Source: Hyphomicrobiales bacterium (GTDB lineage Bacteria > Pseudomonadota > Alphaproteobacteria > Rhizobiales > Xanthobacteraceae). From it: a stretch of 64,000 nt of DNA. Below the pieces are notes generated by a model. The model was not told where the DNA came from, searched no databases, and was given only the letters and a program-made list of their open reading frames with translations. Below are positions 299 to 4,051 of this stretch, one piece after another; within the stretch, counting starts at the first letter, position 1; each line of letters begins with the position of its first letter. The position numbers were made by a program, and so were the translations under genes. Location: assembly GCA_016185205.1 (NCBI GenBank), contig JACPOA010000032.1, forward strand, positions 1 to 64,000, given 5' to 3'.

Positions 299-1183
299 AT
301 GCCCACCCCGACCCATAACCGCTACCCCTACTCCCCCATCACCGGGCGCCCGGTCTACGACTGGCCGGGCGGCAAGCGGCTCGCCGTCTATATTGCGCTC
401 AATCTCGAATGGTTTTCGTTCGGCGAAGGGCTGGGCGCCGAACTGGCGCCCGGCGGGCCGCCGCCGGACGTGCTCAATTACGCCTGGCGCGACTACGGCA
501 ACCGCGTCGGCGTCTTTCGCCTCGCCGAACCGTTCGCCGAGCTGAAGCTGCCGGTGTCGCTGCTGGTCAATTCCGAAATGCTCACGCAGGCGCCGCAGAC
601 GCTCGCGGCCTTCCCCGGAGCCGACATCGTCGGCCATGGCCGCAGCAATTCCGAACGCCAGGGCACGCTCGACGAGACGCAAGAGCGCGCGTTGATCGCC
701 GAGGCCACGCGCGCGCTCGATCGGCATTGCGGTGCGCCGCCGCGCGGCTGGCTCGGGCCCTGGATCTCGCAGTCGCCTGTCACGCCCGACCTGCTGCAGG
801 AGGCCGGCTATACGTATTTGCTCGACTGGTGCCACGACGACCAGCCAGTGTGGATGACGACGCGCAAGGGCCGCATTCTGTCGGTGCCCTATCCGCAGGA
901 GCTCAACGACATTCCGCAGATCGTGGCGCGCAAGCGCGAGGGCTCTGACTTTGCCGACATGATCGTCGATGCCTTCGACGTCATGCATGAGGAATGTGCC
1001 TGCCGCCCGCTGGTGATGGGCATCGCGCTGCATCCCTACATCGTCGGCCAGCCGCACCGCTTCAAACACCTCAAGCGCGCGCTCAAGACGATCGTCTGCC
1101 AGGCCGACAGCCGCGTGTGGTTCACCACGTCAGGCGAGATCGCCAAGCATGCGACGCAGCTTCCCGCCGGCACAGTGCCGTAG
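299..1183 (+). CDS. Polysaccharide deacetylase family protein (PuuE-like allantoinase/deacetylase class)
   Basis: A 294-residue cytoplasmic protein with the NodB-type deacetylase fold expected of metal-dependent de-N-acetylases and non-ureolytic allantoinases. The first strand motif reads VYIALNLEWFSFG (residues 31-43), with Glu37 in place of the usual TFDD acid, as in PuuE-like members. A candidate metal histidine lies in VGHGRSN (His113), and the ALHPYIVGQPHR segment near residue 240 is characteristic of this branch. No signal peptide is seen, which argues against a secreted peptidoglycan or chitin deacetylase. The ATG at 299 was chosen because the family N-terminus (YPYSPITGRP) follows directly. 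Its last 85 bp reappear, degenerate, at 2263-2347. The true substrate cannot be read from sequence. Confidence 0.85.
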   Translation: MPTPTHNRYPYSPITGRPVYDWPGGKRLAVYIALNLEWFSFGEGLGAELAPGGPPPDVLNYAWRDYGNRVGVFRLAEPFAELKLPVSLLVNSEMLTQAPQTLAAFPGADIVGHGRSNSERQGTLDETQERALIAEATRALDRHCGAPPRGWLGPWISQSPVTPDLLQEAGYTYLLDWCHDDQPVWMTTRKGRILSVPYPQELNDIPQIVARKREGSDFADMIVDAFDVMHEECACRPLVMGIALHPYIVGQPHRFKHLKRALKTIVCQADSRVWFTTSGEIAKHATQLPAGTVP

Positions 1184-1236
1184 GGTGTGCGCCCAATCAT
1201 GAGCAGCGATCTTCCGGGATTTTTCAAGGTACTGAA

Positions 1237-2043
1237 ATGCCGACGGCCATGCCACCTCTTCTCGACAATAAGAACCCATCGTCGCCGTCGGTTTTTGCAC
1301 CCGCCGCACTCCTGCGCGAAGCGCGGCGGCAAAAAGGCCTCGCCGCGGTCGATGTGCCGCCCGTCTGTATCTTGGATCCCGACGGCGACATCGTGCGCCG
1401 GCTGAGGGGCACGGGTCGGGCGCAGGCCTTTGCGGGTTGGCCCTGCTACCACACGGCGCTCGATATCTTCACGCTTGCCGGTCAAACTCTCGGGATTGTT
1501 GGCTGCGCAGTCGGCGCACCTTTCGCCGTCCTGGTTGCGGAAGAGCTGTTCGCAAGCGGCTGCCGCTTGTTGGTGAGCCTGACATCCGCCGGTCAGATCA
1601 CTCTGGCGAGGCCGACCCCTTATTTTGTGGTCATCGACCGCGCCCTCCGCGACGAGGGGACGAGCTATCACTATGCGGCGCCGTCGGAATATGGCGAAGC
1701 GGACCCGCGCCTGATAGCGATGGCCGTGGAAGCGCTGGCGAAGAAAAATCTGCCTGCCATCGTTGGCTTAAGCTGGACGACAGATGCGCCATTTCGAGAA
1801 ACCGCAGAGGCGATCGAATCGGCTCGATCGAAAGGCGTGCTTGCCGTCGAAATGGAAGCCGCCGCTCTTTATACGTTCGCGCGCGCCAAGAATAAAAATG
1901 TTCTTTGCCTTGCCCACGTCACCAATAGCATGGGCCAAGACGGGCAAGACTTTGAAAAGGGAGAAGCCGACGGCACCGCCGATGCATTGGCAATAATTGA
2001 AGCCATCGCGACACAATTTTCCAACCATGATATCATCGTGTGA
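1237..2043 (+). CDS. Nucleoside phosphorylase family protein (PNP/UDP phosphorylase fold)
   Basis: The 268-residue product resembles uridine/purine nucleoside phosphorylases, which split nucleosides with phosphate. The late motif VEMEAAALYTFA near residue 210 matches the conserved glutamate-containing segment that binds the ribose in this family. Residues 65-110 (DIFTLAGQTLGIVGCAVGAPFAVLVAEEL) correspond to the phosphate-binding glycine-rich core, though weakly conserved. The ATG at 1237 is preferred to in-frame starts inside the deacetylase gene. The stop overlaps the start of a small cysteine-rich gene by four bases (GTGA), so the two are probably translated together. Composition is slightly less GC-rich than neighbours, and a duplicated deacetylase tail flanks the pair on the far side, hinting at acquisition as a cassette. 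Substrate unknown. Confidence 0.75.
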   Translation: MPTAMPPLLDNKNPSSPSVFAPAALLREARRQKGLAAVDVPPVCILDPDGDIVRRLRGTGRAQAFAGWPCYHTALDIFTLAGQTLGIVGCAVGAPFAVLVAEELFASGCRLLVSLTSAGQITLARPTPYFVVIDRALRDEGTSYHYAAPSEYGEADPRLIAMAVEALAKKNLPAIVGLSWTTDAPFRETAEAIESARSKGVLAVEMEAAALYTFARAKNKNVLCLAHVTNSMGQDGQDFEKGEADGTADALAIIEAIATQFSNHDIIV

Positions 2044-2255
2044 TCTCCGTGATGCAGCTTGAATCCAAACTGACTTGCCCCCGATGCGGGCACCAATCGG
2101 TCGAGCAAATGCCGACCGATGCGTGCCAGTTCTTCTATGTCTGCAAGGGTTGCGGCGAGAAGCTTAAACCGCTGCCGGACGATTGCTGCGTGTCCTGTTC
2201 TTACGGATCGGTGCCGTGCCCGCCGGTTCAGCAAAATAAGTCTTGCTGTTCGTGA
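2040..2255 (+). CDS. GDCCVxC-type small cysteine-rich protein
   Basis: A 71-residue protein with an N-terminal zinc-ribbon-like half (CPRCGHQ at about 13-19, CKGCGEKLKP at about 36-45) and a C-terminal DDCCVSCSYGSVPCPP block. The latter matches the family whose members carry a GDCCVxC signature, some of which use selenocysteine in place of cysteine; here all are ordinary cysteines. The two CxxC pairs suggest metal or thiol chemistry, but no function is established. Start is the GTG at 2040 overlapping the phosphorylase stop; the ATG at 2052 is an alternative. Close coupling with a nucleoside phosphorylase is the only functional clue. Confidence 0.75.
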   Translation: MISVMQLESKLTCPRCGHQSVEQMPTDACQFFYVCKGCGEKLKPLPDDCCVSCSYGSVPCPPVQQNKSCCS

Positions 2256-2262
2256 CGGCCGG

Positions 2263-2347
2263 CCAGGCCGACGGCATGGTGTGGTTCACCATCACGGGCG
2301 AGATCGCCAAGCATGCGGCGCAGCTTCCCGCCGGCACGATGACTTAG
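2263..2347 (+). pseudogene. Remnant of a second copy of the deacetylase 3' end
   Basis: These 85 bp align without gaps to the final 85 bp of the deacetylase gene (1099-1183); I count 13 mismatches, about 85% identity. In the matching frame the remnant reads VWFTITGEIAKHAAQLPAG and ends with a stop codon, against VWFTTSGEIAKHATQLPAG in the intact gene. There is no upstream deacetylase body, so it is a tail only. It sits just after the phosphorylase/GDCCVxC pair, which is therefore bracketed by the real and the residual deacetylase ends. Confidence 0.85.
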
Positions 2348-2578
2348 GGCATGGACGCGTAAACGCACAGCCAATCTCCGCTGTAGGTGTCAGAGCGGAC
2401 ATCGGCAACCGCTGACTGCTCACGGAGGGCCATATTGACTTGACAGCCTTTGCGTGTTGCTCGATAACAACACCCGCAAGTCTTCATTCGCAATCCCGAT
2501 AAGAGCCCGCTCACTCCCTCGACTTCATCATGGCGATTTGGCAGCCTGACGCAGGCTAGTCCGTTTGGGGGTCGTGCC

Positions 2579-3481
2579 ATGGGCGTGCGTGTGTCGGCGT
2601 TGTCGGTTGTGGTTTGTTGCGGAGTCATCGGGGTCATCTTTCCCGTCGCGTCGGCACAAGCGGCTGATATGCCCACCAAGGCGCCGCATGTCGGTTGCGT
2701 GCAGGCGGTGGATGGCATCAACGGCAAGCTCGCCGGACTTGGCGGCTCGTTCGCCAACAAGGGAATCTACGGCGCTCTCGGCTCGCTGGCGCTGCCGCTC
2801 GGCTGCGAGTTCGGCGTCCAGATCGACGGCTCTGCCGGCAGCTTCGATAAGCGCTTCCTCGGCTCCGTCGCCGGCCATTTTTTCTGGCGCGATCCGGCCA
2901 AGGCGCTGGTCGGCCTGTACGGCTCCTCCACCTATTGGAACCAACTCGGCGGCGTGCGCGCCAACCACGTTGGCCCGGAAGCCGAATGGTACATGGGGCG
3001 CTGGACGCTGCAGGGCGTGGCCGGTGTCGAATGGGGCAACACAACCTCGGGCATCGTCGGTGATCTGATCCAGACCTACGACATCAAGACCCGGTTCTTC
3101 GATCAGGTGAACCTCAACTATTACCTGCAGGACAATTTCAAGGTGTTTGTCGGCCACCGCTATCTCGTCGGCAAGCATGCGCTGGCGCTCGGCGGCGAGT
3201 ACGGCATCCCGATGAGCCGGGGCGTCATGACCGCGCTGTTCGCGGAAGCGCGCCTCGGCGAAGGCGACTTCCACGGCGTTTGGGGCGGCGTGCGGTTCTA
3301 CTTCGGCCAGAAGGACAAGACGTTGATCCGCCGTCACCGCGAGGACGATCCGACCGATTGGGGCGGCGGCTTCGGCAACGGCATCCACAATGGCGGCAGC
3401 ACGACGCCGAACTGTCCGACCGCGCCTCCACCCCCTGATCCTGTATTTTCTAGCTTCATTGCGAGCAGCTGCCCGCTCTAA
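2579..3481 (+). CDS. Secreted outer-membrane-type (beta-barrel-like) protein, function unknown
   Basis: A 300-residue protein with a signal peptide: a hydrophobic stretch at about residues 5-25 and an Ala-Gln-Ala cleavage region near 27-29. The mature part alternates short hydrophobic and aromatic strands (for example AGHFFWRD, FKVFVGHRYL, GVWGGVRFYFG), typical of an outer-membrane beta-barrel and similar in style to YadA-less porin-like or surface antigen proteins, without a motif I recognise. The C-terminal 55 residues are low-complexity, glycine and proline rich, and do not end in a canonical barrel aromatic. The ATG at 2579 directly precedes the signal peptide. It is the only gene between the deacetylase remnant and ruvX. 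Function not assigned. Confidence 0.7.
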   Translation: MGVRVSALSVVVCCGVIGVIFPVASAQAADMPTKAPHVGCVQAVDGINGKLAGLGGSFANKGIYGALGSLALPLGCEFGVQIDGSAGSFDKRFLGSVAGHFFWRDPAKALVGLYGSSTYWNQLGGVRANHVGPEAEWYMGRWTLQGVAGVEWGNTTSGIVGDLIQTYDIKTRFFDQVNLNYYLQDNFKVFVGHRYLVGKHALALGGEYGIPMSRGVMTALFAEARLGEGDFHGVWGGVRFYFGQKDKTLIRRHREDDPTDWGGGFGNGIHNGGSTTPNCPTAPPPPDPVFSSFIASSCPL

Positions 3482-3583
3482 TAGACAATGCTGAATGTCT
3501 GCAGCCGATACTTCAGCTCGCAGACCTCGCGCGTCCGCGCGCCGAAGATTGGCCTGCATTGCGCCGCGTGCTAGCGCTTGGCG

Positions 3584-4051
3584 ATGGCCGTCATCTTGCC
3601 GCTCACCGAAGCCGCCGAACATTTTGCGCCGCGCGGGGCGCTGATCGGGCTCGACCTCGGCAGCAAGACCATCGGCGTGGCGGCGAGCGATCCCGACCGC
3701 CGGCTGGCGACCGGGGTGACCACCCTCGCGCGCAGCAATTTCACCGCCGATGCGGCCAAAGTGCTGGCGCTGGCCGCCGAGCGCTCGGCCTGCGGCTTCG
3801 TGCTCGGCCTGCCGATCAACATGGACGGCTCGGAGGGCCCGCGCGCGCAATCGACCCGCGCCTTCGCGCGCAATTTCGCCAAGCTCACGGATTTGCCGAT
3901 CGCGCTGTGGGACGAGCGGCTGTCAACGGCGGCGGTCGAGCGCGGATTGATCGCCAACGATGTCAGCCGCGCCAAGCGTGCGGCTGTTATCGACGAACAT
4001 GCGGCCATGTTCATCCTGCAAGGCGCGCTCGACCGGTTGTCGCGGTTGTAA
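3584..4051 (+). CDS. ruvX: Putative pre-16S rRNA nuclease / Holliday junction resolvase-like RuvX (YqgF)
   Basis: The 155-residue protein has the RNase H-like YqgF fold. Conserved acidic motifs are visible: GLDLGSKTIGVAASD (first Asp near residue 24), VLGLPINMDGSEG in the middle, LWDERLSTAAVE, and IDEHAAMFILQ near the C-terminus. YqgF trims the 5' end of 16S rRNA in E. coli and is essential there. The ATG at 3584 is preferred; a TTG six bases upstream is possible. A bidirectional hairpin terminator follows immediately and separates it from a convergent gene. The usual alphaproteobacterial gatC/gatA neighbours are not in view. Confidence 0.9.
   Translation: MAVILPLTEAAEHFAPRGALIGLDLGSKTIGVAASDPDRRLATGVTTLARSNFTADAAKVLALAAERSACGFVLGLPINMDGSEGPRAQSTRAFARNFAKLTDLPIALWDERLSTAAVERGLIANDVSRAKRAAVIDEHAAMFILQGALDRLSRL

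Follow-up and report, generated by a model that had tools for sequence, protein, structure and literature searches.

In the window (the whole stretch of 64,000 nucleotides analyzed here, from a Hyphomicrobiales bacterium), two intact genes, one for a protein of the nucleoside phosphorylase superfamily and one for a small GDCCVxC-family protein, lie behind a polysaccharide-deacetylase-like gene. They are preceded by the remnant of a methyltransferase gene (F1) and followed by a second, diverged copy of the deacetylase 3' end; their base composition differs from that of the flanking genes, and relatives have the site empty. We consider it probable that a fragment of an operon was joined behind the deacetylase, that the last 88 bp of this gene were duplicated, and that the copy behind the cassette (tail 2) has been drifting. 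The features of the region are as follows.

299..1183, plus strand: polysaccharide-deacetylase/PuuE-like gene, intact, 294 aa (open reading frame, TIGR03212 match, orthologues)
1098..1185, plus strand: tail 1, the deacetylase 3' end plus 2 bp, intact copy of the repeat (repeat search)
1200..1248, plus strand: 5' remnant of a class I SAM-methyltransferase gene, F1 (local alignment to five F1 genes)
1249..2043, plus strand: nucleoside-phosphorylase-superfamily gene, 264 aa from ATG 1249 (PF01048)
2052..2255, plus strand: gene of a small cysteine-rich protein of the GDCCVxC family (NF041374; alternative start, GTG 2049)
2262..2349, plus strand: tail 2, apparently drifting duplicate of the deacetylase 3' end (repeat search, alignments, trees)
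2350..2578, no strand: spacer, 57.2% G+C, without matches in the loci compared (comparison with the relatives' loci)
2579..3481, plus strand: outer-membrane-like gene (omp), signal-peptide-like start by eye (absent at the site in ten relatives)
3584..4051, plus strand: ruvX, the conserved gene downstream of the deacetylase in relatives (PF03652; likely ATG 3584, TTG 3578 in the list of open reading frames)

The repeat and the genes it encloses

The recurrence of the deacetylase tail, claimed in the original prediction, is real. A repeat finder gave an ungapped direct repeat of 88 nt with 85% identity (1098-1185 versus 2262-2349), which on the right runs 2 bases beyond the stop codon and of which the second copy begins at 2262, 6 bases 3' of the GDCCVxC stop codon. 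The similarity is far above chance: the Smith-Waterman score of the two tails is 113, compared with a maximum of 28 among 500 single-base shuffles, and the blastn E value is 9.5e-24 (database of 65 loci). We also arrive at the same count of 13 mismatches, in the last 84 bases, with TAG terminating each copy, and tail 2 has stayed in frame, stop codon included, across 28 codons. Candidates for a third tail remnant, before ruvX and in the spacer, scored 16 and 17, values matched by 203 and 215 of 500 shuffles, and were rejected.

The deacetylase scores 121.2 bits with TIGR03212, under the cut-off of 424.6, and is thus not assigned to the allantoinase PuuE family. It has orthologues, 76 to 87% identical, in at least 10 of 42 same-genus relatives; we called orthologous only deacetylases with an identity of at least 76%, leaving out G001, G016 (65%) and lower matches. 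Its search, like that with the phosphorylase, covered 100 genomes, the window's own genome counted in. Among the matches listed, the nearest named record comes from a Hyphomicrobiales MAG obtained from groundwater; a further four bear the name Pseudolabrys. Elsewhere in the same genome (G000:C6:77709-81433), there are three more deacetylase-like genes less than 4 kb apart, of other subfamilies.

Between the tails, the predicted nucleoside phosphorylase was confirmed as a member of the PF01048 superfamily (104.3 bits, gathering cut-off of 25.1). It stayed under the cut-offs of all nine NCBIfam families listed (DeoD, Udp, HpnG and MTA/SAH nucleosidase were considered), the best score being 48.8 bits against a required 232.25. 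Among proteins of solved structure, a methylthioadenosine phosphorylase comes closest to it (E value of 7.5e-12). Translation probably starts at ATG 1249, close to the onset of homology with relatives. The second gene was correctly placed in the GDCCVxC family (NF041374, 95.6 bits, cut-off of 40), but the motif itself reads DDCCVSC and departs from the exact GDCCVxC, which the homologue in another genome, G021, has as GDCCVFC (translated by eye). Since DNA homology to the G021 gene starts at 2050, translation probably begins at GTG 2049 or ATG 2052 and not at GTG 2040, which would overlap the phosphorylase. This places it 5 to 8 nt past the phosphorylase stop (2041-2043), a tight spacing that does not in itself amount to the proposed translational coupling. 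A scan of positions 1090-3600 gave one promoter-like site (2008-2036, with 0.5 expected) and two terminator-like sites, both within omp (2.0 expected).

Simple Nei-Gojobori estimates (dN of 0.16 and dS of 1.57, the latter near saturation, for the phosphorylase versus its G023 homologue; dN of 0.045 and dS of 0.53 for the GDCCVxC gene versus G021) point to constraint on both families. They mostly span the history in the donor, before the insertion, and are no proof of selection after it; the argument for a use in this genome is that the two reading frames are intact.

The original prediction described the entering DNA as a pair of genes. It overlooked the remnant at 1200-1248, and the incoming DNA appears to have been a truncated three-gene unit. 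Local alignment of this stretch with the first codons of five F1 genes gave scores of 35 to 48, while 1000 shuffles of each reached maxima of 25 to 29. One base is missing, which shifts the frame, and the remnant, some 16 first codons of F1, runs straight into the phosphorylase start, everything else up to that point being deleted. Because 1200-1248 aligns with the start of F1 and lacks one base, F1 probably once belonged to the inserted unit, and here it is dead. Another F1, which is intact and different, is found at G000:C16, at a site common to the relative G028 (G028:C502 has the same neighbor). The remnant was also considered as a copy of this resident gene, and that origin was rejected: the score with it is 44, within the 35 to 48 of the other F1 genes. 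As the remnant is no closer to G000:C16, and this locus shares its neighbor with G028:C502, it looks like a different F1. Methyltransf_25/11 domains were detected in the two F1 copies scanned.

The same site in relatives

None of the 10 orthologous same-genus loci has the cassette, the omp gene or a second tail at this site, so the cassette is not universally present. In five of them (G028, G025, G041, G015 and G007), ruvX lies within ca. 15 bases of the deacetylase stop; the other five (G039, G032, G023, G018 and G022, by tblastn in all five) have a convergent cNMP-binding gene before ruvX, with PF00027 found on the G032 copy. The loci with this gene between deacetylase and ruvX are L116 (5490-5882, PF00027), L115, L117, L118 and L141; in L118 (G022:C22), frame shifts affect the deacetylase (near codon 260) as well as the cNMP gene, perhaps as a result of a low-quality assembly. 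The deacetylase-ruvX interval is variable in its own right. Since relatives show the site without cassette or repeat, an insertion in the window is supported. Among 115 deacetylase-bearing sequences (the window counted in, some loci fetched twice), a second copy of the deacetylase end was present only in the window; a 25-bp reverse-strand match in L214 was taken for chance.

The inserted DNA was predicted to be what lies between the tails. This part stands, but the segment from 2350 to ca. 3580 is also missing from the relatives' site, and the interval has probably collected DNA more than once. Because the omp segment behind tail 2 is also new here, the history includes at least one further step. 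The protein encoded at 2579-3481 has no Pfam or NCBIfam match, and relatives of the gene were found in 5 of 59 other genomes searched, neither the deacetylase nor ruvX adjoining it in the two that were viewed (L236 and L237). The possibility of a segment present in multiple copies was rejected, the only second match of 2343-3590 in its own genome being 24 bp long.

Composition sets the pair apart, with 60.0% G+C in the phosphorylase and 56.4% in the GDCCVxC gene, compared to 67.0% in the deacetylase and 68.8% in ruvX. In addition, the GDCCVxC gene is 88% identical at the DNA level to that of G021 (G021:C14, over 2050-2230), whereas pyrC-plsY of the two genomes are 81% identical; as different genes are compared, this is no more than suggestive of a horizontal origin. 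The entry by recombination at the deacetylase tail that had been proposed is thus supported by the site being empty in 10 of 10 relatives and by the lower G+C of the pair, and the most likely event is that the DNA was acquired horizontally, by faulty recombination in which the end of the deacetylase gene was duplicated.

Origin of the second tail

In the phylogenetic tree, tail 2 joins tail 1, and G028 falls outside (support of 96/93 with five rows out of register, 90/89 when repeated without those five rows). The 81 tail columns alone still pair the tails (77/77), with G025/G041 and not G028 as neighbors, and trees with tail 2 or with tail 1 beside G028 pass the AU test (p of 0.208 and 0.16). 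With nine relatives as reference, the 13 differences were polarized (counted by hand, four assignments by plurality only) into 8 changes on tail 2, 4 on tail 1 and 1 unresolved; with G028 as the sole reference, 6 changes are assigned to tail 2 and 5 to tail 1, and 2 are ambiguous. All 8 changes of tail 2 are in amino-acid-changing codons, three of them at bases fixed in nine of nine relatives, and three of the four changes of tail 1 are silent. Tail 2 thus looks unselected, on few sites. Tail 1 differs from G028 by 6 silent and 6 amino-acid-changing codons (dN of 0.216, dS of 0.422), and the deacetylase end is weakly constrained even among working genes. Because it varies there too, the argument from the drift of tail 2 is a soft one. 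These comparisons support, but do not settle, an origin of tail 2 as a drifting duplicate of the tail found in the window itself. If its 8 changes in 84 bases are treated as neutral and the clock is set to half the dS between the deacetylase and that of G028 (dS of 0.40), the age of the duplication would be, as a rough estimate, about half that of the split from G028.

In the history that we favor, a fragment of a horizontally moving operon of metal type (F1 - phosphorylase - GDCCVxC) would have been joined right after the deacetylase stop, and the same recombination event would have duplicated the last 88 bp of this gene. The copy adjoining the gene body would have kept the deacetylase whole, while the copy behind the cassette, without function, would have been drifting since. 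F1 would have been reduced to its first ca. 16 codons, with phosphorylase and GDCCVxC remaining intact, and these two would probably be transcribed by read-through out of the deacetylase, or else from a weak promoter nearby. We infer this order of events, as well as the read-through expression and a joining error that was either anchored by homology or a single crossover; the joining has left no direct trace at the locus. Ku (PF02735) was not found in the 96%-complete draft G000 (among 14 control genomes, the same search detected it in that of Bacillus subtilis only), and because of this, end joining by an NHEJ system of the cell's own is disfavored, and an origin of the repeat by NHEJ fill-in was rejected.

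A second reading had been offered together with the entry at the tail, namely that a paralogue was lost: the deacetylase would have been duplicated in tandem first, and the cassette would then have replaced nearly all of the second copy. It would fit the grouping of tail 2 with tail 1, the frame and stop codon retained over 28 codons, and the occurrence of neighboring deacetylase genes, of other subfamilies, at G000:C6. However, it requires two events and a loss of ca. 800 bp, the repeat finder reported no repeat upstream of 2262, and the tandem deacetylase that was to be looked for in relatives was present in none of the 10 (stretches viewed at the site), so that we regard the lost paralogue as unneeded and unlikely. 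Somewhat less probable still is that tail 2 came with the cassette from another species in which the cassette was already located behind a deacetylase; the trees joining either tail to G028 that survive the AU test would allow for it, but the best trees pair the two tails, and in 0 of 23 relative loci viewed was a phosphorylase beside a deacetylase.

Genomic islands that insert at gene 3' ends have the 3' end of the host gene repeated at both sides of the insert, and this usual anatomy of foreign DNA between two gene ends is also what we see here. The cassette could then be a stripped island, with the deacetylase 3' end as the integrase attachment site and the tails as attL and attR, but no integrase is recognized between the repeats (F1 remnant, phosphorylase and GDCCVxC only), the unit is very small, just 1.1 kb, and made of operon parts, and no other repeat-flanked insertion was found at the deacetylase ends of the 115 sequences, which makes an island very improbable. 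The same applies, even more strongly, to an assembly artefact or a chance similarity. The assembly is a draft in 112 contigs, with the window beginning at the end of one of them, and none of the relatives searched was found to share these junctions; yet chance is excluded by the score of 113 against 28, and with 13 of 84 bases different, the repeat is not one read stretch placed twice. Of a transposon or insertion sequence, we detected neither an inverted pair with its arms at the borders (20 pairs listed, of at least 20 nt) nor a transposase among the proteins searched (Pfam and NCBIfam).

Returning to the operon fragment that was probably joined behind the deacetylase, the locus has the conserved flanks, the absence in relatives and the basal direct repeats of a repeat-flanked small variable segment, in a comparison between species of one genus and not strains of one species. 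In the available text of the report on microdiversity loci (PMC2884548), such segments likewise have conserved flanks, are short, occur in one genome only and carry basal direct repeats, which are found at 10 to 18% of the small variable segments in four bacterial data sets. Those comparisons are, however, of strains within species, with 66 to 94% of the repeats shorter than 30 bp, while the repeat here, which has already diverged, is of 88 bp. The capture of foreign DNA described in PMC3240628, in which one end is held by homology and the other joined illegitimately, would put foreign DNA beside the homology, and here such a route would be an inferred one. Tandem duplication induced by transformation is also on record, duplications being a known by-product of recombination, but the examples discussed in PMC3784515 are mostly far larger, between 107 and 936 kb, a single one of 3.3 kb being also among them, and ours is of 88 bp.

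A recurrent methyltransferase-phosphorylase neighborhood

A phosphorylase match was found at 29 places in relatives, 23 of which were viewed with wide flanks. F1 adjoins the phosphorylase in 11 of these 23 loci, directly upstream on the same strand in 9 and divergent in 2, and in none of the 23 are F1, phosphorylase and GDCCVxC found in one run. As no genome has the full run, the order in the donor is a reconstruction. Its parts are seen in different combinations: G021 has a heavy-metal ATPase, F1 and GDCCVxC on one strand, and in G008 a stretch of 4 kb beside a MerR gene contains phosphorylase, F1 and GDCCVxC, differently oriented and not as one run. A locus of G021 (L111, G021:C22:1-10000) is of metal type, with a P-type ATPase, a DsbD-like/cupredoxin protein, a NicO-type transporter and F1, and has GDCCVxC as one intact copy and one partial copy with an internal stop.

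Of six plasmids viewed with the phosphorylase, four are typed as conjugative or mobilizable. An annotated SAM-methyltransferase is divergent from the phosphorylase in those of Mesorhizobium sp. INR15 and Bradyrhizobium betae, and in a Methylocystis rosea plasmid (L249:7254-8786) a methyltransferase domain, only distantly F1-like, and the phosphorylase form one annotated protein, a fusion that hints at a shared function of the two. The neighbors of the latter are cysteine desulfurase, DsrE and ArsR-type genes. In the other three plasmids, no methyltransferase is listed beside the phosphorylase. Among the 20 plasmid matches of GDCCVxC listed, out of 347 records, some are annotated as merF, MerT family or arsB.

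It is tentatively possible, although we would not bet on it, that F1, phosphorylase and GDCCVxC make up an undescribed module of metal or sulfur stress, in which the methyltransferase and the enzyme of nucleoside phosphorylase fold share a substrate or recycle a by-product, and which would have been split again here, with phosphorylase and GDCCVxC behind the deacetylase and F1 acting in trans from G000:C16. In the favored history, too, the inserted genes would have a role in metal or sulfur stress. In the literature searched, there was no functional test of the methyltransferase - phosphorylase - GDCCVxC neighborhood and no paper mentioning "GDCCVxC," and among the papers listed, judged by title, none dealt with the pairing of methyltransferase and phosphorylase. 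We consider this neighborhood to be the most interesting lead of the analysis.

As a variable segment flanked by repeats, the locus itself is ordinary, and it has kept a good set of intermediate parts. It offers a clear case of bacterial DNA uptake, common in kind, in which the empty site is visible in relatives and the scar of a small gene acquisition can still be read: the native end, the operon fragment, a dead piece, two intact genes and a duplicate that seems to be drifting. Beyond this site, the SAM-methyltransferase next to the phosphorylase is a recurrent neighborhood, which in some genomes lies close to GDCCVxC and a heavy-metal ATPase.
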